Shown piece by piece: positions 799-57,666 of a stretch of DNA of 64,000 nt (position 1 is the stretch's first letter; every line of letters begins with the position of its first letter). Made by a program: the position numbers and the translations under genes. The notes beneath the pieces were generated by a model, which worked only from the letters and a program-made list of their open reading frames with translations, was not told the DNA's origin and did no database searches. Source of the DNA: Earliella scabrosa (taxonomy: Eukaryota; Basidiomycota; Agaricomycetes; Polyporales; Polyporaceae); NCBI GenBank assembly GCA_022605405.1, contig JABYQQ010000014.1, positions 248,001 through 312,000 on the forward strand. The letters are read 5' to 3'.

Positions 799-3700
799 TC
801 AACGATTCTCCGGCGGCGGCTCATTTTGCGTCGCAGGCCCTTGTCCCTGTTGCTGTTGGCCGAACTGCTGATACGGGTGCATATGCGGTTGCTGGTGGAA
901 GGTCGGCGGCATGTGTTGCGCGGTGTAAGGAGGCATCCCGCCGGACATATGGTAAGGGGGGTATGCTCCTGGCGGGTTACCGTATGGCGGCGCGGGCGGG
1001 TAGAAGGGTGCACCGTGCGGGGGATACCCGTATGCGCTCGGATAATGACCATACGGCGGAGGGTCGTACATCCCGTAGGGCGCTCCTCTCCTCGCGTCGG
1101 GCTGGCGTTGGGGCTGGCGGTGTGCTTGCGCGAAGTCCGCAGATCCCTGCGGGACGCCCTGCGGACCCCGCCATGGGACATCTCCGCGGCTCTGCTCATG
1201 GACATGCTTGCGAGCGTCGTGGCGTGCCTCCTGTTTGCCCTCCTCGCGGACCTCCTCATGGGCCTCCTCGCGGACCTCCTCACGGACCTCCTCGCGAATC
1301 TCCTTCGGAGCGTACCTGCGGACCTCTTCACGGACCTCCTCGCGGGCCTCCTTTGGAGCGTACTTGCGGACCTCCTCGCGGACTTCCTCGCGGACCTCCT
1401 CGCGGACCTCCTCGCGGACCTCCTTTGGAGCGTACTTGCGGACCCTCTCGCGGACCTCCCTCGGAGTGTGCTCGCGGACCTCTGCGCGGCGCTGCGTGGA
1501 GCGTTCCTGGTCGACCTCCATAGGTACGTCTTCCCGGACCCTCTCCCGAGGCGGAGGTGGGCCGTCCTTGCCGCCCTTCGCAGGTACGTAGTCGCCGCCC
1601 TCCGCACGTTCGCCTCCATCGACCACCATGCGTTCATCCTCGCGATCGTACTCGACGACGTCCGGTGCTGCGTCCGGGCGAACCGCTCGAGGAGCGTCCT
1701 CTGGAGGATCCTGCTGGAGCTTCGTGTGCGGTTGTAGATGTTTACGAGGCTATGTCGGATGAGTGAGGAGACGGTAATGACTGAGTTCGTGCCCATACCT
1801 TGGAAACCGCAGCGGCGTGGGCTTGGTTGTCGCGGACGCGGAGCTGCGTGCTCTCCGCCTCGTTCAGTCGGCGCCGTTTTGACGGAGGTTGACTCCCAGA
1901 ACCTTCAGCCTTGAGACGAGGTTCAGGATCAGTGAGGGAGTGAACGGAATGCTAGAGCTTACCTGTGTGTCGCGATCCTGACGAGCGGACTCGTCCCGAG
2001 GTTTCTTCGTCGATGCTGCACTCGTCCTCGACGTCTTGCCCTCCCTTGACTTAGTCGCGGCGATGATATCGCCGACGTCGGGCAGATCGGGATCGGAGTC
2101 GACCAGCGCGGCCGCCCTGCGCTTGATAGCTGTCGGGTTACCGGCTTTCTTCTTCCTGGGATTCATGGGCGAAGGACTTCCTGCGGAGGCGTCCTGGTAT
2201 TCGTCCGACTCGTCCGAGGGCAACAGAACCGGGTCCTCACCGCGCGCATTGGGAGCAGCGACCTCCCTCCGAGGCGTATCGTGGATGTGAACTGGCACAG
2301 GGCGGAATCGAACGGGAGCTCTCGTCTGCTGAGGAAGTTTCGAAGGACCGGGCGTTGGCGGGGATACTGCTCGCGCGACCTCACCGCTTCGTCCGGAGGG
2401 AGTGGGGCGGATAGTGCGGGAGGCGGGGTGGGTCGTGCGGGCGGCGGATTCCTCGTTGCCCTTGTTGTCGCCCTCATCCGCGTTGTCCTCCCCGTCTCCG
2501 TCGTTCTCGCTGTCGTAATCCGACTCCGACTCCGACTCCGTGTGCTTGCGGGCCTTCTTCGGCGCAGCCTTGCGAGTCTTCTTTGCCGGAGCAGCCGATG
2601 ACTCGTCGTCGGTAGCCTCGGAAGGGATACCGGCGTGGTCGATTCGGCCGTTAGCAAATTGTCGCACTCCACAGGGATCTCTGGCTCCGCCAGGTGGTGG
2701 GGCGCCATACACGACGGGATGCAACGACTTTGTGAGATCTAGAATGCAATCAGCGCGAGGGTCGGGCATAGAGCGGTGCTCGATGAGTACTTACCGGATT
2801 TTGGCCCTTGGTGGAGCACGAATCGCAGTGGGTGAGGGTTCTCTCGGTCACAAATGGCGTTGACTATTGCGGTCAGCGCCGCTCCGCCTAGCCCCTGGAA
2901 ACCCTTCGACTTTTTCTTCGTGGGCACCTTGGCGTTGGGATCGGGTAGTGTGACGGGATAAGGAAGGCCGTGGAGCTGGATCCCCAGACTTGCGAGGACT
3001 GTTGTCAGCTGCTTGCAGGGGAAATTCGAGGAGTCCCACAGCGGCTTAGCGCAGTCTCCAAGCATTTCTGGTCAAGGCCGGGCTGTGAGCGGGTAGGACA
3101 GAAGACCAAAGTAGTACTCACTAGCCAATAGACGCAGATGGTTGATGATGAACTTTGACCTGCCGGCCGCGGTCGGAGGGTCGATGTCTTCGGGAAGGAC
3201 GTACTTCGCGACGATTTCGGTGGCCGGCAGTGAGGTCTTTGATGCTCCTACAGGAGCCTTTTCGACCGCCGGAGCGCGACTAGGAGGGGCTGGCTTGCCT
3301 AGCTTCGCCGCGGTGACGCGCGCATATCTCTCGTCCGCGACCTCGGTATTGTCCTCGTACAGCATATCGCCGAGTTCCCGATCAACGTTATCGCTACCGG
3401 GCAACGGTCGAAGAGTCAGGCTGGTCCTACGTTAGGCTTGGTAGCAGTACTCACTAGACGTGTGTTTTGAATCCTGCGAGCACGGCGCTGTCCTGGATCC
3501 GCAGGCGCGTAGGGAAGAACTACGTAGTATCTTATCAGATCCCGAAGGCGATGTCAGATATCGAGAAACGTACGTCTGTTGCGTTCGGAGTTGTGAACAC
3601 CTTCGCAAGTCCGGTGTCAGAGTTGACGATGTTGCCGGCCACGATCAGGGCGGCGCTGAAGCTGTTCAAGACCTCAGCTTCTTCGAGCTATGAGGTCACA

Positions 3701-6700
3701 GTCAGCCATGCAGATCACTAAGATACAGAGTACGGCGCGCTCACAATCCGTGTGACCTTCCGAAACACAGCAGCGAATTCCTTCTTGCGGCTGCCAACGG
3801 TTACCACGCTGGTATTGTGGAGGTCTTCGTGCAGGCGAAACTTCTCCAAAATCTTCTTCGCGTCCTTGCCGTAGGCTCCCTTGAACTCCTTGTAGCAGGC
3901 GCTACGCAGTTGCAGGTCGGTCTGCCAAGCTGTCGCGGATGAGGCTTGTCAGTCTCGTGTAAGCCACTCGCGACCGAGACTCACTGTCGCGCGCGTCTGT
4001 CCCATGAGTTGTCAGCATAAAAGGTGCAAGGGCAACAGAAGCACGACACGTACCCTCCGACAGTCTCCCAATTTCCGACAAAGCATTCTGCTTGTAGAAC
4101 CGGAGATAGAGGTTCCACATGTTGTTCAACAGATGCTTGCGCGAACGTGCGGCCGACCACTGATCAAATACTTGGCCGACGGCAAGATTTGTGGCGGCAG
4201 CGACCTTCTTGGCGATATTGATGACCTCCTGGAAGCCCTCCTGGAGCAGGCGACGATTCTCGTTGGAGACTCGCCCAGGTGCTCTCGGGCCCTCATCGAC
4301 CCATTCGTCGTCGGTGATATCGAAGATGTTGTCGTCGTCTCCGAAGATGTCGCTGAAGGGGTCATAGTCGTCCTCCACGTCGATGTTTCCAGCTGTGTCC
4401 TGCAAAAAAGCTATGTCAGGAGGAAACACGGTGCTTGGTTTGACAGACGGACGTACGCGGCCTTTGCCCTTGTCAGCGGTTGGAATTGACGTGCCCGCGC
4501 CCGGCGCACTGTAGGAGAGTGTCTCCGATGACCTCGCCGACGTTCCAGCAGCGGGGACGGGATTACCGGAGGGTGACGAGGGAACGTCCTGGGGTACGCC
4601 TGCCCATGGCTCCTGAACGTCAACCGGTGAGTTAACCCCTGGGTCTGCAAGGGGGTATGCGGAAGGACTTACGATCGGGTCTGCGGGAGGGTCTGCGGGA
4701 GGGTGCGCGGGAGGGTGCGCGGGAGGGTGTGCGGGAAGGTGCGCGGGAAGGTGCGCGGGAGGGTGCGCGGGAGGGTGCGCGGGAGGGCGGTCCGGAAGGT
4801 ACGTCGGCGGTTGCGGCGGAGGGCGCGGCGGAGGGTGCTCGAGGGTACCCTCGGGAGGGTACACACGAGGTTGCGGCAGAGGGTTCGCGGGAGGGTGCAC
4901 TGGAGGGTGCGCGTGAGGGTGCGCGGGAGGGTGCGCGGGAGGGTGCTCGGGAGGGCGGTCCGGAAGGTACGTCGGCGGTTGCGGCGGAGGGCGCGGCGGA
5001 GGGTGCTCGAGGGTACCCTCGGGAGGGTACACACGAGGTTGCGGCAGAGGGTTCGCGGGAGGGTGCACGGGAGTGTGCGCGGGAGGGTGCGCGGGAGGGT
5101 GCGCGGGAGGGTGCTCGGGAGGGTGCTCGGGAGGGTGCGCGGGAGGGTGCGCGGGAGGGTGCGCGGGAGGGTGCGCGGGAGGGTGCGCGGGAGGGTGCGC
5201 GGGAGGGTGCGCGGGAGGGTGCGCGGGAGGGTGCTCGGGAGGGGCCTCAACCAGAGGGACCGCACCATCGACTCGGTAGATCGGGTGATTGTTGTACCCA
5301 CCATGCAGGAGATCGAAGCCCTGGTGGCGAGGGTCGACTTGAGGTTGGAAGGCGGCCCCGCTCCCGCCAGCAGCCAAGGCGAAGTCGTTGGAGAACTGAT
5401 ACGGGTCGTAGTTGAATGCGCCGGTGATGTTGGGCTGTGTTTGGGCAAAGTTGCGTGATCCTTGAGGTCCCGCAAGATCTGGATGGGGAATGACATGAGT
5501 ATAGCGTTTGAATTATAAGTTCGCCCAACCCTCACCTTGCTGCCAATAAGGCAAGTTGAAACCCATCTCCTGATCGACGTCCATGGTTCCCCATCGAGGA
5601 GCTCGGGCCACGCGTTGAACCTCGCGATCCAACATCTCCGCGCCGTGCGCTCCGAAGTCTGCATGATAGGTGTTGGGAAGCGGCTGGAGGCGGTGGTTCA
5701 GAGGAGCGTTGCTGTGATACTGATTCCCGGCGAGTAGAACGTTGGGCGGCTCGGCAGGGGCGGTCGGGGGACTTGCGGGAGCAGACAACGCACGCCCGCT
5801 GTCGCTGTCAACAGGAAGGTCGGAGGTGGGCTGGCGAGCGGGAGGTGGGTTGTCGGAGACCTGCTGAGGCACGTCGTGGTGAGCATGCCCGCCGATGACC
5901 GCCTGGTGATGGTCGGCGAAGACGTCGTGGCCATGCGCGGTGTCGGCTGAACTTGCGCGGACCTCCCGAGGGACCTCCCCAGCGCTCAGTCCCGAGCGCT
6001 TCGCGAGGTCTTCGAGTACGTTCTGTCGCACTTGCTGTGGGGGGAGGTGGCTGCGGTCTACAAGGGGGTCGACGGAGGCGTTACGTTCGACACTCCCAAC
6101 ACCCTCCGGAGGCGCGTCGGAGGAGATGTCGCGGCGGGGGACTGCCCTTCCCTTGCCCTTGTCAAGTCGAGGGGCGTGAGCAGACACGTCCTCTCGTTCT
6201 GCGAAAGTGGAAGGAGCCTGCGCGGGAACGCTCGCAGGAACGTCTGCGGGGACGGCGGGAGGCTCACGCCCATGTATCTCCACTCCGGACTCCGTGTGGA
6301 CTGCTGAGGTCACCTCCCGAGACGCAGCGCCTGCTGCGCCGACATTCACGAGTACCTGCTTCGGTACCTCTACCGGCACGCCCGCAGGAGGGTCGTAGAC
6401 GATCCCACCAGGCCCCGAGCTAGCAAGACTAGATCCTATACCCTGAGCATGGTACCGGCGCGGAGCGAATGGCTCGGATTGTATGTCAGTATGCTGACCA
6501 TTGCCGACATAGATCGCCGACACAACCTCTGCAGCTCCGACCTCCCAAGCCTTCGTCCCCTTACCATCTCCCGAAGACGCCCTATTGGCAGGCAAAGCCC
6601 CGCTCGCATCCTGAGGGGTGCTCTTCGCTGGATTCGGCCACAGTCAGAGACGGAGGAAGAGGTATCTATGAGACGGATACTCACAAATATCTCCGCTCGA

Positions 6701-7631
6701 AGTATTCTTCCGGCGGACTCTTGCAGGCTCTGCGCTGGCCGAAGTTCCTGATACGAAGCAGCATGAGATGGGTAAGTGAACAGATGGACAGTTTGACTTA
6801 CCCATCTCATGCTGCTTCGCTTCAGCCTTCGTACGTGAGCGGGTTGCGCGCGAGTGCATGAAGTCTTTGCCAGTCGCTGCGTGTGCTTTGGTGCTTTTTG
6901 GTTTCTTGGCCGCCGTTGCGCCCGTAGTGATAGCTGGCGCGTCCGCGATGGGAACCGCAGATGTCGGCAAAGCGGGTGTAGGAACGGGGGCGGGTGCGTC
7001 GGAGGTTGGGGTGTCGGAGGTTGAGGTCAAAGCGTCGGGAGCGAGAGGAGGGGGGCTAAGGGCTGAACCGGACGATGTCGACAGCGGCGTAGTCGCATCC
7101 TGCGCACTTGTCGAAGCGCCGACGACGGAGGTGGACGTGTCGGAGATGGTCGTCGACGCGTTTTGGGCGTCATGGGACGCGTTCGACACGGTCGTCAACG
7201 CGTTCGGGGCCTTGCGGAACGTGTCGTCGACCGTCGTCGACGCGTTCTGGGTGTTTTGCGACGCGTCGGAGATCGAGCTCAACGCGCTCAGGGGGTCGTG
7301 GGATGCATCGGAGGCGGTCGTCGACCTGCTCGAGGCGTCGGGGGACGCGTCGGATGCGCCGCTGGACTGTTTCTTCCCGGCTAAGAGATGAAAATGAGTA
7401 CATCACTGCCTGCCAGCCCTGACCAGGGAATATTTGCGTACCTCTCGCTCTAGGAAGCGTCTCGGGTTTGCTAGACGGTGGCGGCTTCGCCATCGTCCGT
7501 ATGCGCGTCGATTTGCGGGTCGGTGGGGGAGGGCATTCGACCGGTAGGACGTGTCGCAACGCTCTCGGGGTGGGCGTACCCGATCCCTCGCGTACCGACG
7601 CGTCCAACGGCGCGTCGATGGACGCGTCCAT
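799..7631 (-). CDS. Large disordered protein of an expanded agaricomycete family
   Basis: This is a multi-exon gene read from about 7.6 kb down to 0.8 kb. The N-terminal half is disordered, with Ser/Thr/Asn/Ala repeats, then Pro-rich stretches including a long HPPA repeat (4.67-5.25 kb). A conserved-looking core follows at about 4.3-2.7 kb. It contains an acidic stretch, a helical RRLLQEGFQEVINIA segment, an AGNIVNSDTGLAKVF segment, an FFPTRLRIQDS exon and a VVYGAPPPGG segment. From memory this core matches a protein family that is expanded and uncharacterised in Agaricomycetes. The C-terminal part has acidic/Ser tracts, VREE repeats (1.2-1.5 kb) and a QQQQ tail. Introns are about 50-70 nt; one near 3.94-4.05 kb is about 115 nt. 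The ATG at 7631 is a guess, because the upstream frame stays open to about 8.0 kb. No enzymatic domain is visible, so function is unknown. Confidence 0.65.
1195..1500 (-). repeat. VREE/VRKYAPKE coding minisatellite
   Basis: Twelve-base units (cggacctcctcg on the plus strand) and longer units with ggagcgtactt encode VREEVREE and VRKYAPKE repeats near the C terminus of the first gene. The charged repeat probably forms an extended helix. Reading frame is kept through all units. Confidence 0.8.
4675..5250 (-). repeat. HPPA coding minisatellite with a duplicated 168-bp block
   Basis: Twelve-base units (gtgcgcgggagg on the plus strand) encode tandem His-Pro-Pro-Ala. A block of about 168 bp encoding a less regular Pro-rich sequence occurs twice, at about 4785 and 4953, inside the array. 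The frame is intact across the region. Arrays like this commonly vary in length between strains. Confidence 0.85.
6754..6819. repeat. 24-bp perfect inverted repeat over a splice donor
   Basis: The arms at 6754-6777 and 6796-6819 are perfect reverse complements with an 18-nt loop. On the minus (coding) strand one arm holds an exon end plus its GTAAGT donor, and the other lies inside the intron just before the acceptor. The pre-mRNA could fold so that the 5' splice site is in a stem. Confidence 0.85.
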
Positions 7632-8124
7632 CGGCGCGTTTTGGGCCTTCTCGGGCGGCGGCTGGTACCAATCAGCTTCAGCACTTCTGAAAGAATGGCT
7701 GCAACGGTACCTTGGACATGTGAGATCGCCAGAGTTCGTGGTGGGTGTGGCTGCAGTGGGGCTGATAGCGGTGGTGGTAATGGTGGAGGAGGAGGAGGAG
7801 GAGGAAGAGGAGCAAGGGCAGGTATCAGCCGTGCGTTGCCACCGGCACGGTGCCCAAGGCTCGGAAGCTGTCGCGATGGCAGCTTTTTGGCCTGCGGCGT
7901 GGTGAGCGACGTTCGCGACGACCTCCTGGGCAAATGCTACGTCAAATACAGCAAAGGGAGCTCTGCAGAGACCTCCCCTAGCCCAAACATAGTAAGTACA
8001 CGGCGCAGGCACATGGCGATGCCGTTGTTTGCATGATGCTCCCCCATGCCTGGCTGAAATGATCGCCCTTCAGTACTTCATAACCGCTGCGGTACAAGAT
8101 ACATACATTCACGAACAGTGGTGT

Positions 8125-9094
8125 CTAAGAACCATTCCCGTACTCTACATCTTCGACATGCTCGTGCCAGACGTACTGAAAAAGCTCACCGCGCGCACCG
8201 ATGATTGCGTTGTAATTCTCCCAATATGGCGATCGGGATGTAACGAGAGACTCGGGCTCGACGCCGAGCATCTGATCAGCGCGGCGCAATGAGACCAACT
8301 CATCGCTGATTTGGCAGAGTCGGCTCCTTGTTTTCTCGTGTTCCCATTCAAGCCGCGCCCGCGTATCATCCTCTCCGACGCCGGCGTGCGCACTGCTGGT
8401 TGAGCACGTAGATGAGGGATGGGGAATGGGGCTCGGAGATAACATGCCGTAGGGACTGGTGTAGATGTTCGGGAAATGGACGGTCGTTTCGTGCATGGTC
8501 GACGCCTGCACCGGGGGCAATGGGGCTTCTCCATCGGAGCGCTCGGGCGTCTCGCCGATGGGTTCTGTTTCGTCGGAGTCGAAAATGTCCGTCTCACCCA
8601 CCGGACCAATGGGAGAAGAGAAGGAATCGTCGCGGTCATCCTCTCCTATTGGACCAATGGGAGGGCGGTCAGCAATCGTCCGGGAGAAGAGCGGAGAAGT
8701 CAGCAAATTCGCACTCACCTATTGGCCCGCCCGGAGACTCCAACCGACCTACGTTCGCTACGTGGCCGCCGCCCCCGACAGCATCTTCCGGCCGGTCAAC
8801 GACGGTGTGATTGTCGTCGGGGCTCTCGTCGTCGGAGCTGTGGAACTCTCCAATGGGCTCTACGTCCGATGAATTGGCGTGCGGTGCCGTGCCAGGCCCG
8901 CCGATGACGACTGCACTCTCGACCTCCGCGCCCGCCCCCGGCGCCGGGAGATGAACGGCTTGCTGAATGGGTGCGAAGAGCTCCAACCCGCTAGCGCCGG
9001 CTGCAGGAGCGTCAACCATGGAAGCCGTACTGAGTGGCTCGGGAGCTTGTGCTGACTCTGGAGGGGAGGATGAGCGTGCCTCTCCTATAGGCAT
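8125..9094 (-). CDS. PIG-motif protein of element A
   Basis: Two exons (9094-8719 and 8645-8125) joined over a 73-nt intron give about 298 aa. The intron splits a PIGE motif and splicing restores it. The N-terminal two thirds are acidic and disordered, with five PIGE or PVGE motifs, most followed by Ser/Asp-rich runs such as FHSSDDE and RDDSFSS. The C-terminal part is a helical region with ISDELVSL and YWENYNAII. The second copy in element B (20376-21391) shares this C-terminal pattern and has its own P-x-IG motifs, so I treat them as one family. It is divergent from the Zn-cluster gene at 9460, with 365 bp between the start codons, so the two may share a promoter. Function unknown; the short repeated motifs suggest docking to a partner protein. 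Confidence 0.6.
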
Positions 9095-9459
9095 CCCCGG
9101 AGAGAGTGGCCCTGGAGTTGGCGAGCGGATGCGTAGTCGACGAGCTGCACTCCGTTCTACATTCTACGCATTAGCTTCTGATATGCATCCGACGGGTGAT
9201 ACCTTACCATCTTCGGAGGATGGCGACGTGTCCCTGGGGTGCTTTCCAACCATGAACGGGCCTGCACATAACATTAGCAGCAACTAAACTCAGAGGTTGG
9301 TGTGTGAGTACCTTGCAACCTGGGGAGACGGTAGATGACCGGAACCTCTTCGCGCGATGCGGAGTCTTGTACCCGAGCCCACGTGGGATGGGCGCTTGTA
9401 ATGCCACCGCATGTCATGTGTCGGCTCCTTGGTCGTGCCCATCTCTGTCCTGCTTTCTT

Positions 9460-12454
9460 ATGATGTCTCAACCTGATTCCGCATCCAACTCTGCTAAGCG
9501 ACTGCCACCAACTCCTGAGGCTATCGAAGAGGCTGAAGAGTACTGTAGTCAACTCTACTATGCCTGGAAGGAGCGACCGCCGACAGACTCTGCGTCCCGT
9601 CGGAGTTGGGACCTCCACTTTGCGAAGACCTGCAAAGATCTCGGGAAGGTTCTCAAGCAATATAAATTCAAGACGCTCCCGCCCTTCGTCATCGGTTGCA
9701 TCTGGGAGTTTAACAACTCCTTCTACGCCCGCAGAGCTTTTGTGGACGCGGAAGCCATACGGGACGCCAACGATAGCAGCCATCCGGCCCTCAATCCCGC
9801 ATCTGCTCGCTATATACGCTATCAGCCCGCGACAGAAGGCGAGGTTGTTATACGGGGGCGCGCCGAGATGCGTAACACATGGTGGGAGGTAGATGGTGCG
9901 TATGTGGACCATCATCGTCTGCAACATTGAGCTACACCTCTGTCACCCAAGCACTCACCTGTAACATTAGCCTCCACTGTCAACGAGACCTTCGACGCCC
10001 GTGCTTCAGCGAGCACAGTCATCCCCGACGTGGCAACCTCCGCCGACTCGGAGCAAAATCCCTGTCCTCCCCCTGCTAATCCAACCGGGTCCCCGTCACA
10101 GCCATCCCTCCTCGAGGTCTCTCGCCCGCGCCTGCTCTCACCGCGCCCGCTCTCACCGCTCTCGCCGCGCCCGCTCTCACCGCTCTCGCCGCGCCCGCTC
10201 TCGCCGCGCCCACTCTCGCCGCGCCGTAGGGAGCGCTCTCAGACGCTATCGCAACGCGCGATGTCCGCTGAACCTCGCTCTCAGCCTCAGGGCAAGCGCA
10301 AGGCCTCTCAGTCCCCTCCGCAGGAAGACGATACTGAGCGCTCAGCGAGGACCGGCCCGGGGAACACATCCGAAGTGAATGAAGCCGAATCAGTCCCCGA
10401 AATGTTGTCCTTCGTAAGTTCACACCAACTTTGCGCATTTTATCCCTTGCTCAGCATCGGGCAGCCGTTGGGATGTGGGTGTGAAGGATGCAGAAAGATT
10501 GGGGCAACTTGCGAGGTGGATACGTTTGCTGGGACAGTATGTAAGCAGTGCCGGAAGATCAAGGTGAAATGCAGCTTTATGCAAGTCACCTCAAAGCCCC
10601 TGCGATGCTACCTGGTCTGGCGGTTCTGGAGGGCGTCCCATGAGAACAATGAGAACCCGGATCCCAACTTCATACCTCCAGAATACTCGTCAGACTCAGC
10701 GTCGCCACCAGACTGGTGGCTAGCGCGGACGCCCTCTCGTCGGGACCGCAAGCGCGCACGGACTTCTGAGCCCGTCGGGAGACCTGCGCCGCCACCGTCA
10801 CGGGGTCGTTCCCGCCCTAGATCCGCACCTTCCGCTCCCAGTGAAAAAAACATCGAGCGTCCATCGCTACTGGAAACGACCGCGGGCTCGCCTCAGGGGC
10901 CCCTTCCTCCTCGTCTCCCTCCTCGTCCATCTCCGGCACCCTCATCCGCCGCCTGCGGCCAACCAATTCCCACTCCCGAGCCAGCATGGACTCGTTCGCC
11001 TGCTGTCGTCGTACCTCCACCGTCTGCCCGCAGGCTTCGCTCTCGGACAGCTGCCATCATCCCTCCGGGCGCCGAGGAGGCTCCGGGCAATGCTTCTGGA
11101 CCTGATTCTCATCGGACTTCCCCTGCAACTCACTCACTCACGAAACCTGCTTCGGGAGTAATGCGCGCGGCCCGTTTGAACGGTGCGTGTTTCCGGATTC
11201 TTCAATTGACTTAGCTGATACAGCCACTGCATAGGTTCATGGCGAGATCTACCAACTCTGGCTCGGGCTCCGGCTCCCACCCCTGAACCCGAGGCTGAAC
11301 GCCCTAACTCCCCACCGACTCGGTCCTATCTTCCCGAGTCCTGGCGGCCTAGCGCTAGCATCTCCGACCCCGAACGACTTGCTATTTCCAGTAGCACGAG
11401 CGCGCGACCCCGGACTCCCCCAGCCATCGCATTCCAGCCCGGTGTCAACACGATCCAGTTAGCCGAGGAAGCCCAAAGGCGGATTACCCAGATCCGGGAC
11501 CTCCAATCCTCGCTTGCACGCGCGGCAGCCGAAGCTGAAGCGCTCGCGCAGGACAGTCGTTTGCGACGTCTCGCAGGACAGACGGAAGTCCGGCAGCCAG
11601 AGGCCGTGCCGGAGGCGCTTGAACTACTTGCGGCTCAGCAGACGCAACTAGCAGCCGACAATCGGCGAGGCGCGGAGGTGCTCGGTCGAGTGTCCCAAAC
11701 TCTTGGATCCGTTTGCGCCCTGTTTGAACTTCTGCCGCCCATCCCGATGAACGATCGCGTGTTGTTGGAGATGCTGGACTTGGTCCATCAACTGCGCGAA
11801 CTATACGGCACGATTCAAACGGCGTTTCAAACGAATCAAGAGAGTCTCCGGCCGGTGCAGGAGGAGCTACTGAGGGTTCGCGAAGAGCAGCAGTCTATCA
11901 TCGACCGATTGGATCAGGTCCCCAACGACGTCTCTACAGCAGTTCACCCCCTTCTTCGACGCCTCTATGACCATGTCAATCAAACTCGCCCGAAAGCTTT
12001 ACCAGACGCCATTCCACGTGGACAAGATTCTTCGCCCGCGCGCAACCCTGCTCCTCCCGCGTCTGAGCTCGTCTCATACCAGCCAGTGGCAGGACTATGG
12101 ACAGAGGTCAACGCGCTCAGAGCACGCATCGAAACGCTGGAGGGTGCGCAGGGTTTGCAAATGCAAACTGACGACGGAGCTGCAGGATCCGTGCATGCGA
12201 GTGCTGACGGCGCGCCTGTAGAGGTCAACCCCAGTGCGCCAGACAGCGAGGACGACCTGCGGAGGATGGTAGTTGACCTTGGTAGACGTGTGACACGACT
12301 TGAGGGCGCCCAGGACAGTCGACTCGCTGTTCGTGAGTATCTGGAACAGCTTGGGCTGGACGGTGACCTATTGCGCCGTCTGGCATGCACGACGGCTGCT
12401 CAGTCTACCAAATACGCGTTTCCCGGTTGGTCATGGGGCTCTGGAGGTAGATAA
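9460..12454 (+). CDS. Zn2Cys6-like cluster protein of element A
   Basis: Starts at ATGATG (9460). The first exon encodes a helical N-terminal domain (EEYCSQLYYAWKERP, FVIGCIWEFNN). A disordered Ser/Pro/Arg exon with LSPRP repeats follows. After an intron at about 10.41-10.45 kb comes a cysteine cluster spaced C-x2-C-x6-C-x9-C-x2-C-x6-C (about 10.48-10.57 kb), which matches the spacing of the fungal Zn(II)2Cys6 binuclear cluster. Unlike typical Gal4-type factors, the cluster is internal. The C-terminal quarter (11.46-12.45 kb) is rich in heptad-like Leu and Gln and probably coiled coil, with a second short helix-rich tail. It may bind DNA as a dimer. The paralogue in element B keeps the same order: N-terminal helices, disordered region, cluster, coiled coil. 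It is divergent from the PIG-motif gene. Confidence 0.65.
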
Positions 12455-12667
12455 AACCGCGCGAGTCAAGTAGTACCATGTATTTCGAGTTCGAATTTAG
12501 TCGCTCATGCTCGGCAGTCAGAATGATGCGTCCGCGTGCGACATCAAGGGTCGACGCTGAACGGAGACGGCATCAGAACCGGCCTCCTCACATTGCTTTG
12601 CTGGCATCCCCGACCCCGTTCCCCTCAGCTTACTCAACTTGGACTGCGTGCCTCTCCTCGCAAGACT

Positions 12668-29952: not shown

Positions 29953-29960
29953 AGACTGTT

Positions 29961-47541: not shown

Positions 47542-47959
47542 TTTTTCAGCCGCCTTTTATGGCCAATTATCTGAGCGTGAAGGGCCAGGCATGATCGACG
47601 AGAGTTCGTCGGTGGGTTCGGCTGTCCGACCAAGGAACGCGTTGAGATCGCCAAGAGGATGGAGGAGATACGGTAGGCCGGCTGATCGTGGGCGCTGAAG
47701 AAAGTCTAAGTAAGCGTTAGCAAGTGTGCCAGTGTGGCGGTGTCGCGGGAATGCGGCCGGCGCGGGCGGCGGAACACGCGTGGCAATGACGGCGGCAACG
47801 TACAGGAAAGTTCCGGCATTGTTATGTCAAAGCAGGAAAGTACCGCACATGGGTGTGCAGGTGGCCGACATGACTCCGAGTACATGGGAGGACAGGCGGA
47901 GTGTAGGGGTGCATGTTGCAAAGTAAGGTTTTAGTTGACAAAGTCTGCTGTTTGTCTGC
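47542..47959. other. Intergenic, right part of element C
   Basis: About 420 bp upstream of the large Cys-rich gene, holding its promoter. No gene or repeat seen. Confidence 0.4.
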
Positions 47960-48072
47960 CATAGTTGACAAACAGCATCTTTTGTTAGAGCTTGTTGGAG
48001 TTTGTCATTAATTGCAAGCAAACCAACATGCCAGGGAGCTGCAATGTATTTTGTCCAATAAAACCCGTCATA
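47960..48072. repeat. Right terminal inverted repeat of element C
   Basis: Complement reads TATGACGGGTTTTATTGGACA from 48072 inward, then CATTGCA, CTCCCT, TGACAAA (48007-48001), CTAACA (47988-47983) and TTTGTCA (47972-47966). Spacing of the last three words equals that of the left end. Confidence 0.8.
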
Positions 48073-48078
48073 CACTTC
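48073..48078. repeat. Right target-site duplication of element C
   Basis: CACTTC, matching 29961-29966. It lies 41 bp before the KDZ start codon, so element C sits in that gene's promoter or 5' leader. Confidence 0.75.
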
Positions 48079-48119
48079 TTACTGCTACACTCTGCCGGTA
48101 CGCCGCATACTCCTCCAAC

Positions 48120-51100
48120 ATGGCTCGCAAACTACGGACAGAGCGCTATGACCGGTACGGAGAGCAGAGAGTGGTGCAGCGAAAGACCAAACGTGGCAAC
48201 AAATATGTTCTCAAGAAGGCCGCGCCAAATGCCTCTGCGAGTGCGGGACTCTCTAGCTTGATCCCCGAAACACCTCGCCACTCCCAACCACCTCCCCAGC
48301 CACAGCCATCCCCGCCGATGCTTCCCGTAGATGACATTAGAAATGAATTTACATTCGAAGTCAAAAAACAGGTGTGTCTACATCTCGCTGATGTACCTAC
48401 CGGGCGATCCTCACGAATTGCCCGCGCACGCTCTCGAACAATACCCGCCGTGCACTGCAATGTCCGGAAATACCACAGACCCAGAACGACTACCAGAGAG
48501 CGTGGCTCGCGCAACACCGCGATCAGTATCTTGGTGTTCTCTATGATCAGGAGGGAGGGGGAGATGAAGCTTTCTGCAACTGCGGACGACCGGCGTTGTG
48601 GAGATGTATGGACTGTGTAGGACGGGCCGAATCCTGTGGCCCATGCTGTGCCAACTCCCATCGCCTCAACCCGCTACATCGTATCGAATATTGGACAGGA
48701 ACCCACTATGAACAATCATGGCTACGCACGCTGGGTGTCAGAGTAGCCCTCGGGCACAGTGGGGCTGATTGCCCGACGCAGCGCCGGTGGGAGCGGTCAT
48801 CTTCTGCAGCAAGCAGATCGGTCAAGACGAGTTCCTCGCCGCTGTCCTCTCCTCCGCCATCCTCTCCTACTCCATCCTCCCCTCCTCCATCGTCTCCGCC
48901 ACCATCGTCTCCCCGCCCATCATCTCCTGCGGAGAGCGACAACACTGACCCTCCACCGCCGGCCCTCGGTAAGCGACGGGCCGAGGGCGAGCCGGACAAT
49001 CCCCTCAAGACTCGGGCACGCTCTACCTTGACCCCCATAGAGTCAGACACGGAAAGTGAAACCGAGGAGATTGGAGAGGACCCTGAGCAGGATGACGACG
49101 AGTACCGCCAGTGCCCGTATGTCCTATCTCCCGATGACGCTGCTTCGATGCCGCGCCTGTCCGAGTCCTCCCTCGCAGGAGCTGCCCGCAGACCTCGACA
49201 ATCGACCCGCATACACTTGGGGACACCCAGTATGATGGTCGTGGTGGATGTATCTGGGGTCCACGAGCTACCGTTCGTGTTTTGCTCATGTGCCGACGCG
49301 GAATCCCGAGACCTCCAACTCCTACGAATGGGCTACTATCCCGCAACTGCCCGCCGGCCACGAACCGTCTTTACATTCCGAGTGCTAGACGATTTCTTGC
49401 TGACAAACAAGGAGTGCAAGACGGCTGCTATGAACTACTACAACAAACTTCGTCGGATAACCGACGATACGTTTCCGCACGCAGTCCCAGTACGAGAACA
49501 GCTATGTAGCCGCTCCGCTGTATCTGATGTGCGTCTGTTTACAGGACAGATACCGCGATCTACTGCGCGTATCTCGTCAGTGGCGAAACCTCAAAGCTCG
49601 AAAGCGGTTCGGAGTTGGATATCGGAACGAGCAGCCCCCCGGCCCAGGAGGCTTGACGACGTCTTGCCCGGCGTGTCCACGCCCTGGAATCAACATGGCG
49701 GACGGATGGGAGCAGGATGCAGATCGGTAAGTCAGTTCACTACGCAGAGCACCTAGCTTAACGACTCATTGCTCTCAGATGGAAACACATGCCTACCGTG
49801 ATTCTCGACGGGAACTTTAGTGCCCAGCATCAACACATGAAAAACCCGCAGGACGATGTCCGCTTATCCGACGGGCACGGATACATGGTCACCAGTGCAC
49901 CCTACAGGGAGCACCTACGAACGGCCGTTCAGTTTAAGCAGGTAGGGCCCGCCACAATGTTGCACAGTCGCATGTAACTGACGAGTCTGCAGAAACTGAC
50001 ATGCCATGATCACCGCGCCGTCTTAGCGGCAGCTTCTGAGCGAGCCCCTCTGGAAGCCACCGGAATTGGCGCTGCAGCATGTAGTCGCCACGGTTTTTTT
50101 ATTCCCCACTCTACAGTCGACTTTCAGAAGGGCGAGCAGTGAGTTCTACTTGTCTTCCAAGCGGGCCCGCCCGGGGAATTCATGTTAGCTAATATATTAC
50201 CCGCAGACAGAAGAACATGGACTACTGCCTGTGCCAGGTCATCCTGTTCTTTCAAACACTGTATCTGCTATTGATTCTCTACGACATATGGTGTCACTAC
50301 TGTGTGCACCTTATGCGACGGTTTGAGCGCAGCCCGAGCTTACATATGCCCGCTGACCTCACAGTGATGGGTGGGATTGACCAATTCCACGTTCACGGAC
50401 ATATCCGCGAGTGCTACCCTCGATACTCTCCTAATTTTATTCCGGGAGCCGGTGTACAGGATGGCGACGTTCTAGAGACACTCTGGATCAATGTGAATGA
50501 GATCTCTACCAGCACTCGCGGGATGTCTGACGGACATCGTCAAGAGTCTATCGACGACATCATGGAGGATTCGAACTGGAACAAGCTCCTGCGTGTAGGT
50601 ACGCCAACCTACAACATTGGAGATGCAGACCGGCTCTTGACATTGGATTGAACAGCGCCGGCTCTGGCTCGAAAATGGAGGACTGCATGTGAGGAGTGGG
50701 GGCCCGCGGCGCAGGCGTTGCAGAAGGCGGGCGAAGAAGTGGATCCCAAACAGATCGAACAGTGGACCAGGTTGGCCAAGCGGGCGGCAGAGATGCGGCA
50801 CAAGGACATCAAGGTGATGGACGTATTTGAGTTCGAGAGTCGAAAACGTGAGTGTGGAACCCGCAGCTTGCCCGCATTTGCGTTCATTGACCGGAGCGCC
50901 AACAGTTCCGACTCGGGCAGAGATTCAGCTCCAGCTCACGCGGGCCGAGAATGAACATCGTGAAGGACTGAAAGGCTCAGCGGCTTGGCTGGCCTCTGGA
51001 CTTAAGATCGAGGAGACGAGGTATGGTCTGATCAGCAATATCATCAGTTTACTTAATGACATCTGTCCAGGCTATCTGTTGCCGCCAAAGCAAGATCCGT

Positions 51101-52192
51101 TACACTACACAGTCCACTAGCAGAGCAAATTGCGCTTGAACAAATGAGGACCAACCTGCTGCGCGACATAGAGCGGTTCCACAAAGAGGCCGCCTCCTAC
51201 CTGAGCCCGCTCACGCTCGCGGCTGCCCGGTCCCTGGATGCGGACATATCGTCGCTCGGGATGGAATGGGACAGCATAACAGCGGCAAGCGAGGTTGCCG
51301 ATGAACGCGCTACCCCAGCACAAGACGGCGAAGCAGATACGCATGAAGGCTCTAACAACAGAGGTCCGACCATCCCTGAGCGGATGAAGATCGCATTGCC
51401 GTCAAATCTCGGGCGCGCGTTCTGCAAAGAACACGGCCTTGAAGTTCTCGTCAAGAAGGAGCGGGAGCTCCGCGTCGGTCAGATGAACGACACGCTGCAT
51501 GGGATACGAGTAGCGGTCGGGTACAAGTCGTTTCTCTATTGAACAGGTGTGCGCAAAGCGACGTCGCATCGTCAGAAACTGCGCAGTTTTGACGAGGTCC
51601 ATCTTGCGGATGCGGGCGTACTGCACAATGCCCGTACATACTCTGCCGCCCGTGCAGCATCCGCCGCACTCTACGATGAGCGGGACCCCAAGGAGCTCGC
51701 GGCTCGAGATGAACTCTTCTTGCGATACCGGGTTCTGGAGAAGACTGACTTGAAGGCCAATACCGCGATTATCGAGCAAGCCACGAGAGGCATCCGCAAC
51801 AAGCATCTAGCTTGGTTCTGGAGCCTAGACGTCGAGGAGGACTCCAAGGAAAGTCCGTGGATGAGCGAAAGTGCGTGAATTACTATTTCTGTCAGCCGTG
51901 ACTGACTCACTCATCAGTGTACCGGGTTGTTTGGCTGCGGGCACACGAGCGGAAGACCCGCTGGACTGAAGAGCTTGTTCTCGTCTGGCTCGAGATGACG
52001 CGAACGCTCAGGACGTTTCAGTTCTGGGAAGACGAGTGGACTGATCGTCGGGAGAGAGAAGGCCGGGCAGGACATCGTGCATTCGCCGCCCGCCAGGCGG
52101 CCATATGGCGCGGGCTGAACGGTCATGCATCGCAGCTGTTCCAAACAGCTCGCACCCGATACAGCGCCCCAGTTGCTGTAAGGGTAGCGTAA
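48120..52192 (+). CDS. KDZ transposase, CxC2 type, of element B (one in-frame stop)
   Basis: Multi-exon gene starting MARKLRTERYDRY. A CxC2-like cluster (AFCNCGRPALWRCMDC, ESCGPCC, LNPLHRIEYWTG) precedes a Pro/Ser linker. Next come VVVDVSGVHELPFVFCSC and TVFTFRVLDDFLL, typical of CxC2 KDZ proteins. The catalytic core has TVILDGNFSAQHQHMKNP, ILYDIWCHYCVHL, DQFHVHGHIRECY and DVLETLWINVNEISTSTRGM. The C-terminal region (TDLKANTAIIEQATRGIRNK, LAWFWSLDVEED) is also typical. One in-frame TGA at 51540-51542 follows KSFLY, where an Arg codon would be expected. The frame continues on both sides, so this is probably a CGA-to-TGA change that truncates the protein. Fragments of C-terminal helix follow to the TAA at 52190-52192. 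Confidence 0.85.
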
Positions 52193-52393
52193 ATTCTGGC
52201 CGGATTATGTATTGTATTGAGGTATCTATCGTCTATGGCGTGAAATGCCCGCGAGCGGGCGCCGCTCGGGCGGGCAATATCTCTGACTGCGCGCGCGCTG
52301 ATCTTGGGCTCCGGTACGGCCCGGGGGTGCGGAGAAAGGCTCGTGCTCTTGTCTGATGTCTCTCGCGCTGTTCATTCTTCTGCTCTCACAGCA

Positions 52394-53099
52394 ATGACCA
52401 CGGCAAAGACAATGCCCGCCCGGATCCTGGCTGCTGGACGTATTGAACTAGACTTGATATCCTGGCGCATCGTCCAGGCGCTGCGCGCATACCCGGCGGG
52501 GGCTGATATTCAAGTGCAGCGACGCTGGCGGCATGGATTAGGGCGCGAGATGGTAGGTGTGATTACGTGACTATCTCAGTACAGTCAGTCTCACCGGAAG
52601 CAACATCCCAGTGGCAGGCTATCTATGCCATGGGGCTGACGGCGGCAACCGGGGCAGTCCCTGCGGGGTTGGGCTGTGCTGGTGCAATCCTGCCCGTACT
52701 GAAGACGATGTTTGCCAACATCGAGTGGCGAGATCTGGCGATCTGGGTCAAGCTTGAGGAAATCAACGTGGAAGGCGTGGTCAGTACTCTGGACGCATCG
52801 ATCGACTTTGCCGACAGTGCTCTCGCGGGCGATCAGTGGTGGCTGTGGCCGAATGCGGGTAATGACGAATTCACTCCCCCTGCCTGGTGGAATGCTCCAT
52901 CAGAGGCCGTGGCATGTATTCTGCAAGCTATAATCAGTAAATAGAACTGATTCCGTTGTAGAACCGACCGTTGATGGTCCACTACATGGACATTGTCGGT
53001 GTGTCTGCTCTTGCGGAGTCTATCGTCAAGACAGCCGATTGCCAGAAGAAAATCGTAGGCACTCATGTGCAGCAGGAGGATTTACGCAGGACGGAATAA
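52394..53099 (+). CDS. Small Trp-rich protein W of element B
   Basis: Three exons (52394-52552, 52612-52908, 52962-53099) give about 197 aa. Exon 1 contains SWRIVQALRAYPAG and RHGLGREM, exon 2 WQAIYAMGLTAATG and WWLWPNAG, exon 3 PLMVHYMDIVGV. Both introns match the positions and phases of the element A copy (14778-15604), which argues strongly for homology despite low identity. It lies 201 bp downstream of the KDZ gene in the same orientation. Function unknown. Confidence 0.65.
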
Positions 53100-53504
53100 A
53101 TAGAAGCGGGTGGAGGGTATGAGATTGCTTCGGTATATGATGATGTGGCGGTAGCTTGATCTGTGGGGTCTGGCTGGCGGGCAGTGCGGGCGGGCAACAT
53201 CGCGGGCAGTGTGGCAAATGTAATTAATGGGCGGGGATTATGGACAGACCTTGGTCAAAATAGCACATTCATCAAATAGCTGTCACTTCAATCCAAACTT
53301 GTAGAGAATTCCTCGAGCTCGAAGCTTCAGAACCATGGTTGATGTGCTATATGGCCACGGAGTGTGTACAATATACAGGGACCAAATATGTCCAGATGAG
53401 CAAGTCAATTGACATTTCATATATTCATGACAGTAAGTTGAGCAGTGCAGGAAACCTGCAGGGAACTGGATCTTATGAAGAAGAGCATCAGCGGTGTTCA
53501 GTAT
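53100..53504. other. AT-rich right flank of element B, gene-free
   Basis: Falls between the W gene and the satellite. AT-rich with few CG dinucleotides; ctgtcacttcaat at about 53281 matches the left flank of element B. No gene seen. Confidence 0.5.
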
Positions 53505-54740
53505 TGGCAGATGCACGGAGATAATATTTACACGTTGATCATCCAGTTGAGATATAATATGCACACCACGGTACCTCGATTGGCGGACGATGTTCCCAGG
53601 AGTGTTGTCTGATTGGGATTCGATATATCCATGATCGTTGATCAATTGGAGAGGGATATCTACAGCTCAGTGCACCAGTCGGGAGACAATATTGCCAGTC
53701 CGCTGCACCAGTTAGGCTCCCTCTCTCCGGATGAAGCTGCACCTGGAACTTTCGGCAGATGCACGGAGATAATATTTGCACGTTGATCATCCAGTTGAGA
53801 TATAATATGCACATGGCGGTACCTCGATTGGCGGACGATGCTCCCAGGGGTGTTGTCTGATTGGGATTCGATATATCCATGATCGTTGATCAATTGGACA
53901 GGGATATCTACAGCTCAGTGGACCAGTCGGGAGACAATATTGCCAGTCCGCTGCACCAGTTAGGCTCCCTCTCTCCGGATGAAGCTGCACCTGGAACTTT
54001 CGGCAGATGCACGGAGATAATATTTGCACGTTGATCATCCAGTTGAGATATAATATGCACATGGCGGTACCTCGATTGGCGGACGATGTTCCCAGAAGTG
54101 TTGTCTGATTGGGATTCGATATATCCATGATCGTTGATCAATTGGAGAGGGATATCTACAGCTCAGTGGACCAGTCGGGAGACAATATTGCCAGTCCGCT
54201 GCACCAGTTAGGCTCCCTCTCTCCGGATGAAGCTGCACCTGGAACTTTCGGCAGATGCACGGAGATAATATTTGCACGTTGATCATCCAGTTGAGATATA
54301 ATATGCACATGGCGGTACCTCGATTGGCGGACGATGTTCCCAGAAGTGTTGTCTGATTGGGATTCGATATATCCATGATCGTTGATCAATTGGAGAGGGA
54401 TATCTACAGCTCAGTGGACCAGTCGGGAGACAATATTGCCAGTCCGCTGCACCAGTTAGGCTCCCTCTCTCCGGATGAAGCTGCACCTGGAACTTTCGGC
54501 AGATGCACGGAGATAATATTTGCACGTTGATCATCCAGTTGAGATATAATATGCACATGGCGGTACCTCGATTGGCGGACGATGTTCCCAGAAGTGTTGT
54601 CTGATTGGGATTCGATATATCCATGATCGTTGATCAATTGGAGAGGGATATCTACAGCTCAGTGGACCAGTCGGGAGACAATATTGCCAGTCCGCTGCAC
54701 CAGTTAGGCTCCCCCTTTCCGGATGAAGCTGCACCTGGGC
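53505..54740. repeat. 248-bp satellite, five copies
   Basis: Five head-to-tail units of 248 bp, for example ggcagatgcacgg at 53506 and 53754. Copies 2 to 4 are almost identical; the first and last are more diverged at the outer edges. Units contain gatcgttgatcaattgg and two EcoRV-like gatatc/gatata words. Apparent 113-codon frames recur with the repeat and are not genes. The array lies in the AT-rich right flank of element B. Confidence 0.95.
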
Positions 54741-55269
54741 CTTTTGGTGGGTCTAGTAGACATGCTCATTTCATGCTTATCACCATATCATAAGTACAGT
54801 ATCCTGAACCAATTGATCAGTCAATACTGATTGACATTCACAGAGAGCAATTTCAGTCTACCACTAGATACAGCTCCAATAGCACTAGTGGTAAGATGTG
54901 ACACATTGTTCATGAATTGAACACAATATTACAAGACTCTGGATCAGGATCTGGTCACATAAGTCATTTACTGGTTGATCTGCACATAATACCTACACAG
55001 AGCTTGAAACTCACTGTATTGCAACCTCCTTGCAAAGGACCTGAGCTATGCCAACAACACAGCCCCCTCATGTCTAAAGCTAAGAGAACCAATAGACAGC
55101 AAGTATATAACCACAGCACAGATCAATAGCCATACACATCCATAACAAATACATTTGAATGGACCACCTAGTGGCATGATTCTGATCAGAGATACATCCT
55201 GTGAACACTATATGATCTCAATTGACTTTCATATTTAGCCAAATGAACATTATTACTAAGTTCAACTGC
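54741..55269. other. AT-rich, CpG-poor right end of element B
   Basis: About 530 bp between the satellite and the right inverted repeat. Composition is like the left flank (19.24-20.37 kb). No gene or RNA seen. Confidence 0.5.
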
Positions 55270-55336
55270 CCCAGCACCTTGGGAGTTTATCACACTTTAC
55301 TGACCAGTACACTGTATATATCTACTACATGGGCTC
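55270..55336. repeat. Right terminal inverted repeat of element B
   Basis: Complement of this stretch, read inward, gives AGTAGAT at 10 nt, CAGTGTACTG, CAGTAAA and GTGATAAACT, matching 19174-19240. Confidence 0.8.
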
Positions 55337-55343
55337 ATAACTC
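55337..55343. repeat. Right target-site duplication of element B
   Basis: ATAACTC, identical to 19167-19173. Its complement GAGTTAT forms part of the splice donor region gtgagttat of the split KDZ/Ulp1 gene. Confidence 0.8.
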
Positions 55344-55345
55344 AC

Positions 55346-57178
55346 CTGTTAAAGTCGCGTCCAAACCGCGTGCCTCCGAAACACGCCGGACACCGTTTCT
55401 GCAAGATCCGGTCGCAGCTACTTGCTTTGAGTCCAGCAGCATTCAATCCCGGTATGTGAGGCTCTTGACTGGTCGGAGCCTGTGTCGCTGCAGGTCGCGG
55501 AGGATTGGCCGAGGGGCCACGATTTTGCTCTCTCGGACCTCCCGCAACATGTCCATCTGAACCCTCTCTCGGACCTTCTGCTGAGTGTGCGTTCGGACCC
55601 TCCCACGAACCTCCTGCCGGATGTGCGTTCGGACCCTCCCACGGACCTCCCTGGAGACCTCCTCCCGGACCTCCCTGGAGACCTCCCCCCGAACCCTCCC
55701 GCGGACCTCCCTGGAGACCTCCCCCCGGACGTCCTACCGGAAGTCTATGGAGAGGTCCCGTGGTACCCTCCCTTGAAGGTTCTGACGGATGTCCATGCGC
55801 ACCCTCCAGCGGAGGTCCTCCAAACGGTTCCAAGGGACCCTCGCGAGTACCTGCAGTGGGAGGGTGAGAACGAATACCTACCGCCAGAGGTCCTGTCGGC
55901 CATTCCATTGTAGCTCCTCCGGAAGTTGCGCGTTCCGTCGTTCCCTGGTGTGCCCCTAGAATAATATGTCAGTTAGTAGCGGGAATACTTATGAACTATT
56001 CTATGAACAGAGGCAAGCCTTACCTGTGTCCTGGGACATTGCCTCGGATTCCGAACCTTTCGCGACCTTGAAGGATATGACCGTTTGCAAACAATCGTCG
56101 ACAGCGGTCTCCACGATGGAATCGACTCGATTCCGGAGGCAGTCGTACCATTGTATCGCGTATCCTATTCCTCGGCGGAACGGGTCTTGGACAGGTTCTC
56201 CCTAGTGCAAAAGAGTCAAGGATCGGTATCGTGAGGTCTCGGAGCATGCAAGTAGCGGAGCGACTATAGCTCGGACTGACCTTGTCGTTCAGAACAGGGA
56301 AACCACGTCTCTGATACAACGTCTTGAGTGCTCCTGCCAGCGCAGTCACCGCGTCCGCCGATCGTTCGAAGAGTGCGAAGTAGAAATCGAGGAGGTCTAT
56401 CGACACGGCTACACGGGGCTGAGAGGGTGCTGTGGGGAATAGACCATTCTTGACAAGCGTATGGGATAGAGGCGAGCAGGAGCATGAATGTATATCGAGT
56501 GTTGCTAAATCTATATCAGAGAGAACTTCGTCAATCGCAGGTGGACGCGTCAGCAAAAACAGGCGTACGGTCAAAATAGAGACATGTGATGCTTGTCACT
56601 TCTAGCATGCAGGATTGTTCCATGCAGTGACATGGCTCAAAGCTTCCGGAGCCTCCGCCGGTCCGCCCTTGAGCTGCTTGTAAATATGTAAGATAGTTCG
56701 GTACCAGAGTTGGGATAAGCGCCAGCCAGGTGGAATATAGGCGATGCGCCGCCTCGTCCGGATGGAGTCGTCGGGATTTTTTTGAAGCAGCGGTTTCCGC
56801 CGTAAACTCGACATGGTTGTCCTGCATCATCACATCATCCTCTGGAGGTATGGCGTGGGGGTTGTCAGAATCGAGGAGAGGTTCGCTGGTCATCTCCGAG
56901 TCCGAGAGGTCATCCGCGGCCGCAGCGTCAACGGAAGTCGGATTCGAGTCTGATGGACCCGGAGTTGGAGTACCGGGAGGATGGAGAAGTTCCGCGATTT
57001 CTTGAGCGAGTCGGTCTCTGAGAACGAGTGCGTTGGCTCGTGTCACGACTTCCGCATTCTTCCGAGGGGCGCGCCGTCCTTGAGGAGTGCTGAAGTGCTG
57101 GCCCACGGCTTGCTCATTGCGACGTGGTGGTCGCCGCGGAGGCGTTTGGGGAGGCGGTAGCACATACTGAGAGTCCAT
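55346..57178 (-). CDS. KDZ transposase/Ulp1 protease, 5' half of split gene
   Basis: Upstream half of the gene continued at 15739-19122. Starts MDSQYVLPPPQTP at 57178. A disordered lead is followed by a CxC1-like cysteine cluster (PCHCMEQSCMLEV, then after an intron IHSCSCSPLSHTLV) and a helical region (SIDLLDFYFALFERSADAV, QWYDCLRNRVDSIVE). A Gly/Pro/Glu-rich low-complexity stretch (55.5-55.85 kb) separates these from RCPACFGGTRFGRDFNR, which leads straight into the catalytic core in intact KDZ proteins. The last codon is split by the donor AACAG|gtgagt at 55346/55345, phase-matched to the acceptor at 19123. No stop or frameshift is visible. Confidence 0.85.
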
Positions 57179-57666
57179 ACTAGAAAGGAAGACGATGGCG
57201 GTGGTTTCAAGGCTGTAGAGGCCCTCAGGCGCCGTGTTAGAGAGGTGTGCGGGCGCGGCGTGTAGACTTAGGTTGAGTAAATTTCGGTCATGTAATTGCT
57301 AAGTACTACAAGCGGGAGAATCTCGTCGGAGAGGAGGTCTTTGCGAACGTCCCAGAGAGGGTCCTTTTGAATTTGAGGTCGCCAGTGACGTCCTGGGGAG
57401 CGTCCGAGCGGTAAATTACCAAAGGGGGGGACGCTATTAATAGGATGACAGCATGGGAACAGGTACCAAGGGGGTCCTCTAAGGTAGGTTTCCCATCTAC
57501 AACGAAACCCACCTAAGAGGTTGGTCGTAGTCCTGGTCAGGCCCTGCCTTAGGTGGCGAGAGCAAACCTGAGAGGGATGCCACGTGACCGTGGCTGTCGT
57601 GGCGGGCCGGGGGTCGGGAATCGGGATCAGAGGCCGGAGGCGGCGCGCGCGATTAGGTCGAGGGCG
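57179..57666. other. Junction between element A and host DNA
   Basis: No gene that I can support. An imperfect palindrome (57476-57492 with 57504-57520, 2 mismatches in 17) lies close to the expected right boundary of element A, with a related ccttaggtgg at about 57547. A minus-strand frame ending near 57268 reads like coding sequence for about 30 codons but has no context. Confidence 0.4.
57476..57520. repeat. Imperfect palindrome near right end of element A
   Basis: Arms cctctaaggtaggtttc and gaaacccacctaagagg with an 11-nt loop. It may be a terminal structure of element A or a promoter motif of the host gene that starts about 150 bp away. Confidence 0.6.

Follow-up and report, generated by a model that had tools for sequence, protein, structure and literature searches.

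Architecture of the locus

What accounts for a transposase region that is spread over some 41 kb in the genome of the wood-decay mushroom Earliella scabrosa? The window, by which we mean the whole 64,000-nucleotide stretch of DNA analysed (C14:248001-312000, where C-numbers are contigs of this 51.7-Mb genome of 48 contigs), holds three large DNA transposons, A, B and C, and a tiny one, D, each inside another. On the evidence of their sequences, we interpret the locus as a nested DNA-transposon insertion, with D in C, C in B and B in A, and put the probability of this reading at about 95%. An earlier, sequence-only reading of the window had proposed a three-element nest, A[B[C]B]A; its nesting stands and its depth does not, a fourth level (D in C) having been missed.

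The target duplications of the nest measure 8 bp (A), 7 bp (B), 6 bp (C) and 2 bp (D), and the element ends are homology borders or inverted repeats. Each of the large elements carries terminal inverted repeats, as had been suggested: ~80 bp, gapped and imperfect in A, ~55 bp and imperfect in B, and ~45 bp and imperfect in C. In a control of 2000 stretches of 75 bases, drawn at random from the window, equal-or-better scores numbered 0 for A, 3 for B and 3 for C, the counts for B and C including the query's own place, as the top scores show. Empty sites, which had been proposed as a check in other strains or related genomes, were sought among paralogues in the same genome and found for both B and C; all are paralogous and none allelic, and the comparison draws on one genome assembly.

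Element A

The features assigned to A are as follows.

1..57555, minus strand: element A, a KDZ transposon with Tet/JBP; its left end, C14:247893, lies outside the window
57556..57563: right copy of the A target-site duplication GCGAGAGC; the left copy, C14:247885-247892, lies outside the window
13461..14012, plus strand: Tet/JBP dioxygenase frame with HRD motif (Pfam Tet_JBP, 2.3e-16; CcTet match)
15943..17324, minus strand: Ulp1-type (C48) protease segment downstream of the A KDZ part (gene model; Pfam Peptidase_C48, E 2.5e-4 in 15983-16591)
18105..19122, minus strand: KDZ transposase part, 3' side of the transposase gene (Pfam KDZ, E 1e-48)
19123..55345, minus strand: intron of the transposase gene, with GTGAGT donor and CAG acceptor intact
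55346..57298, minus strand: 5' part of the same transposase gene, with CxC1 cysteine cluster (Pfam CxC1 in 56020-56595, E 2.2e-6); 57298 is a reading-frame limit

A had been placed at 799 to 57550, and both ends required correction: the left end is C14:247893, 107 bp before the first base of the window, and the right end is 57555; at 799 a reading frame ends. The C34 copy of A remains homologous leftward through the first base of the window and rightward as far as 57555. At the left end, BLAST homology starts exactly at C14:247893 in comparison with the copy on C23 and 15 bases further out in comparison with C34, and CACCCCAGGCAGGG stands there in all three copies fetched (window, C34 and C23). 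A is flanked by a perfect 8-bp duplication, GCGAGAGC, and the C23 copy is flanked on both sides by the 8-bp duplication GGACACTG; the flanks of the C34 copy show no matching duplication, which leaves two of the three copies with both ends seen carrying one. The element measures 57,663 bp with its nested guests and 21,493 bp without them.

In 10 other copies of A, 2.1-2.5 kb separate the gene-side terminus from the KDZ match; in the window copy the distance is 38.4 kb, and in an eleventh other copy (on C1) the nearest such terminus is ~19 kb away. A short pattern search for this terminus returned 30 matches against 33 for a reversed control, so the pattern alone proves nothing and it is the steady distance from KDZ that carries the evidence.

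Element B and the enlarged intron

B and its genes are oriented opposite to the transposase gene of A.

19174..55336, plus strand: element B, a KDZ transposon with Tet/JBP
19167..19173 and 55337..55343: left and right copies of the B target-site duplication ATAACTC
29416..29952, plus strand: Tet/JBP dioxygenase frame (Pfam, 7.9e-15; CcTet match)
48120..50651, plus strand: CxC2-KDZ transposase gene (Pfam CxC2, 9.2e-29, at 48392-49756; Pfam KDZ, 1.2e-28, at 50193-50651); the ATG at 48120 was picked by eye and the 3' end is approximate

Both copies of ATAACTC were found flanking B at the positions first proposed, and they are the only plus-strand copies in the window, with one further copy on the minus strand. 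The left border of B is where a second B copy, on C23, begins to be homologous; a C shared at 19173/19174 leaves this border open by one base, so that the duplication may be 6 or 7 bp long. B starts with CA and ends with TC, and its right end (..GGGCTC) fails to mirror the left within the first 10 bases. Its length is 36,163 bp with C and D, and falls to 18,051 bp once C and a single copy of the C duplication are taken away. The copy on C23 has the same start and covers ~2.6 kb only; a genome search for the right-end stretch of B found no second copy, and a plasmid search with the left junction returned no match. The Tet frames of A and B are 36% identical over 155 residues and the KDZ frames 25% over 83, and from this low identity we regard the two as different families.

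The proposal that B lies within an intron of the A transposase gene is supported. The intron measures 36,223 nt with B, and joining the flanks of B with one duplication copy restores an intron of 53 nt. On the gene strand, the exon ends in ACAG and the intron opens with GTGAGTTAT, the duplicated target being GAGTTAT, directly after the donor GT; beyond B, the intron resumes with GAGTTATTGACG, ends in ATACAG and is followed by GGACG. The KDZ frame of A spans 18105-19163, with the exon starting at 19122, a splice site.

Relatives of A elsewhere in the genome retain a short intron at this position. From at least 42 matches, close KDZ relatives were recognised at 12 or more places with at least 67% identity, window included; 10 of the other 11 places were aligned across the join, and matches at or below 38% identity were left out. 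A short GT..AG intron, read by eye, is present at the position of B in all 10 aligned relatives, which belong to the same genome. The BLAST pieces that flank the join in the eleventh relative (L024), left out of the alignment, lie ~1 kb apart. An origin of the two gene halves in different copies had been named as a finding that would speak against the nest. In each of the three closest relatives (L010, L011 and L012), one continuous paralogous stretch matches both halves: a single alignment by BLAST, ~2.6 kb long and 77-81% identical, crosses the join, where it is ungapped, and the two halves are therefore one gene. The spread of the A transposase region over ~41 kb is supported as the product of a guest-filled intron; the Ulp1 segment may belong to the same gene or to a separate one. 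Rough gene models, from which the KDZ gene of A is missing, assign 1,658 of 21,385 bases to introns, so that insertion into an intron of A is by itself unremarkable.

Two repeat structures were observed in and around the B family. Near the right end of B, 53506-54738 is a tandem array of five copies of a 248-bp unit with 98% matches. Around the truncated copy on C23, two stretches recur letter for letter ~34.8 kb apart (C23:78399/113154 and 81051/115806), perhaps as a large direct repeat.

Element C and its position in B

The features of C, and of D within it, are listed below.

29967..48072, plus strand: element C, an IS3EU-like transposon of 18,106 bp with termini TATGA..TCATA
29961..29966 and 48073..48078: left and right copies of the C target-site duplication CACTTC
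30630..32425, plus strand: transposase with rve-type core (Pfam rva_4, 4.1e-52; rve, 8.4e-8)
33716..35267, minus strand: putative accessory gene (gene model; a 253-aa frame recurs in C relatives)
43048..47263, minus strand: putative large accessory gene (gene model; the C-terminal 503 aa recur in C relatives)
40991..41334: element D, a 344-bp MITE inside C with 29-bp perfect inverted repeats

As with B, the boundaries given for C were borne out, both copies of CACTTC being present. C starts with TATGAGGCC and finishes with CGTCATA, and its left border is the point at which the match ends between two C relatives, on C16 and C17, that share 1,865 bp of identical sequence. A pattern search for the C terminus gave 39 matches against 27 for the control.

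C had also been described as lying between two genes of B, and it does sit between the Tet/JBP and CxC2-KDZ genes, starting 14 bases after the Tet stop codon, with 41 bases between its right duplication copy and the ATG at 48120. The gap between Tet and CxC2 is 18,440 nt with C and 328 nt without it, and measures 279-348 nt in 11 of 11 B-family places. These were drawn from the best 30 of 93 matches to the CxC2 frame, which were cut out as the window and L040-L068; 20 loci (L040-L059) with both Tet and CxC2 matches correspond to the 11 places, and nine (L060-L068) were left out as lacking a Tet match in the fetched stretch. With near-identical copies among the 11 (C26/C35/C37; two on C24; C11/C19), about seven of the places are independent.

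The C relatives on C16 and C17 (C16:730602-752372 and C17:192842-214612) measure 21,771 bp each by the positions of their termini and have different flanks, and the C16 relative carries the 6-bp duplication CGAACC on both sides. By their sequences, the pair most likely arose when an IS3EU-like element of 21.8 kb transposed very recently, and the C family would be a candidate for a recently active lineage of large IS3EU-like elements in Polyporales.

Genes of C and element D

In the C transposase, D258, D315 and E333 are invariant in 12 of 12 aligned rows and are the putative catalytic three; the splice model used lacks ~17 residues that are found in relatives. A total of 349 homologues were reported, and the named organisms among the 120 listed are, as we take it from their names, Agaricomycetes.

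Both accessory genes occur in the same order and opposite to the transposase at 7 of 10 places (two on C21, and one each on C16, C17, C23, C24 and C28), places being counted where a C-type transposase match covers most of the query. The place on C6 has only the first accessory gene, and neither gene is present in the copies that lie close to the starts of C15 and C19; on C13 and C35 there are both accessory matches and no transposase match among those listed. The parts of the accessory genes that were searched gave no significant Pfam, NCBIfam or PDB sequence match. For the large protein, Pfam returned only a sub-threshold DinB_2 match (E 0.04), NCBIfam none, and PDB sequence searches either none or chloride channel chains at E of 1 or above; a structure model built from two sequences has a mean pLDDT of 33.9, too low to be of use. 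An impression from the letters that this protein resembles a HECT ubiquitin ligase found no support in Pfam, PDB or NCBIfam.

We considered whether C, with its 6-bp duplication and 18 kb, could be a Maverick/Polinton element and rejected this assignment, no DNA polymerase or packaging match having appeared in Pfam searches of 14 of the 41 C frames of at least 150 aa, each run singly, and of the typed proteins. With 14 of 41 frames searched singly, the rejection rests mainly on the TA..TA termini.

D has the termini CATCA..TGATG, is flanked on both sides by a 2-bp duplication, TG, and occupies a part of C in which no gene was modelled. A genome search with D gave 12 main matches including itself, of which four are shorter at one or both ends and the remainder share borders within ~2 bases.

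Order of insertion and alternatives

Nesting had been taken to give the order of insertion outright, which it does not do, as it proves only that a host was present when its guest landed. It is silent on whether C entered B before or after B entered A, and we therefore rate the order A, then B, then C, as read from the sequence, as likely rather than proven.

A less probable course, which we consider unlikely without dismissing it, is that B had received C (with D) at another locus before the resulting 36-kb unit moved into A. The sequence of the nest would look identical under either order, and the sole other B copy found, a fragment of ~2.6 kb from the left end, is uninformative on the point. 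This course requires a transposition of 36 kb, and C is present at its site in B in 0 of 11 B-family places examined; these relatives are distant (~40-60% protein identity), which makes the absence weak counter-evidence.

We see very little room for an assembly chimera or mis-join that stacked unrelated repeats, even though the region is repeat-rich and the analysis draws on the assembly alone. Such a join would not yield exact duplications at family-defined ends, nor intron and gap lengths (53 and 328 nt) that return to those of relatives once the guests are removed, and the contig that carries the nest is 1.46 Mb long. Least credible is the notion that the giant intron is natural to the A transposase gene and that B and C, instead of having inserted, are part of its resident sequence: the transposase region does cover ~41 kb with its splice signals intact, but the short intron in all 10 aligned relatives contradicts it, as do the transposase genes, inverted repeats and duplications that B and C have of their own.

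Under the preferred reading of successive insertions, the TET-bearing KDZ element A would have settled in the genome and duplicated 8 bp of its target. B, a distantly related TET-bearing KDZ element, would then have integrated through 7-bp (or 6-bp) staggered cuts into the 53-nt intron of A, at a target directly after the donor GT that left donor and acceptor intact. The IS3EU-like C would have followed through 6-bp staggered cuts just downstream of the Tet/JBP stop codon of B, and the Plavaka-like MITE D would have entered the gene-model-free stretch of C. We infer that these were cut-and-paste events by the named transposases, in the real-time order A, B, C, D.

Comparison with known transposons

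In the accessible part of the report on Cryptococcus neoformans, the elements KDZ1-KDZ3 are ~9-11 kb long, have TIRs of 139-241 bp, encode a KDZ core with CxC1 and make duplications of 8 bp (KDZ1) or 4-8 bp (KDZ2 and KDZ3), and KDZ2 and KDZ3 were seen inserting into introns and exons of a reporter gene (PMC12810828). A resembles them in its KDZ core with CxC1 and, in its 8-bp duplication, KDZ1 in particular; it differs in its 21.5-kb length, its shorter, gapped TIR and its Tet/JBP gene, none being mentioned for KDZ1-KDZ3 in that part of the report (PMC12810828).

TET+ Kyakuja and Zisupton elements of Agaricomycetes, as portrayed in the available text, combine a KDZ transposase with an AG-type Tet/JBP, marked by HxD and by the positions of CcTET Gly331 and Asp337 (PMC12730594). 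In alignments read by eye, the Tet/JBP frames of both A and B show these marks: H-R-D, with G at +5 and with D at +11. A has the KDZ domain with CxC1 and the 8-bp duplication of the KDZ superfamily (Zisupton, Dileera and Cryptococcus KDZ1), and B has the KDZ transposase domain with CxC2. In duplication length, B (7 bp) is like Kyakuja and A (8 bp) like Zisupton; in that text, Polyporales are reported with TET+ Kyakuja only, whereas A has an 8-bp duplication (PMC12730594). The two Kyakuja families described there have CA..TG termini and no TIRs, while B has CA..TC and imperfect TIRs (PMC12730594). B thus agrees with Kyakuja in its 7-bp duplication (6 bp being possible) and departs from it at the termini, and is for this reason filed as KDZ only.

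IS3EU/GingerRoot elements are characterised by an rve-like transposase core, TA..TA termini and a 6-bp duplication, all of which C shares, in so far as the accessible portions describe them (PMC10045372, PMC12730594). C has TATGA..TCATA with CACTTC, its C16 relative has CGAACC, and its transposase is of the rve-type DDE kind; from termini, duplication and transposase core, we class C as IS3EU-like. The TET+ IS3EU of rust fungi have TAYGG..CCRTA, and C, starting TATGA, agrees in TAYG and differs at the second G; fungal TET+ IS3EU are there said to carry a Tet/JBP and an alpha-kinase gene (PMC12730594), neither of which was matched by Pfam in the 14 C frames, of 41 of at least 150 aa, that were run singly. 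C further differs from the IS3EU elements described in these portions in its 18.1 kb and its two recurring opposite-strand accessory genes (PMC10045372, PMC12730594). Plavaka-B elements are given CATCA..TGATG termini and 2-3-bp duplications in the text available, and D is like them in both, although only 344 bp long (PMC12730594). By these features D may be called Plavaka-B-like, a 2-bp duplication being weak evidence.

The locus is a clean, well-marked example of its kind, the families and nesting as such being already known. As far as the literature was searched, four things are new: this locus, the presence of a fourth level in it, the ends of A as corrected above, and an IS3EU-like family of large elements in which accessory genes recur. 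Literature listings on large nested elements, nested elements in basidiomycetes, KDZ nesting and introns, IS3EU with HECT, and Earliella contained no entry on this locus.

Implications

Fungal introns are typically short, so loss of its own transposase is the likelier outcome for A: the 36-kb intron would be poorly spliced and this copy would no longer make the enzyme, although other copies of A could still supply it in trans. It seems quite improbable that the transposase is still made, with a 36,223-nt intron that includes whole KDZ and IS3EU-like elements spliced out; if it were, A would host its guests without cost to its own mobility. The locus thereby offers a simple test case for the splicing of a 36-kb intron in a mushroom.

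More generally, the nest presents transposons landing in harmless gaps of others, namely an intron, an intergenic gap and a gene-model-free stretch, with four duplication lengths. The occurrence of two TET-bearing elements in one nest agrees with what has been published on fungal transposons equipped with an enzyme that counters DNA methylation.

Three further features of the A family were noted. A predicted 2,381-aa gene of A contains 12-bp and 72- or 168-bp tandem repeats (4683-5243 and 1239-1482), and a hairpin at 6748-6825 has 33-bp arms, 91% complementary, around a 12-nt loop. The A copy that extends from C6:1934098 to ~1981400 is at least 47 kb long; it holds ~26 kb of additional sequence between the positions equivalent to 5929 and 18105 of the window, which may be a different nested insertion.
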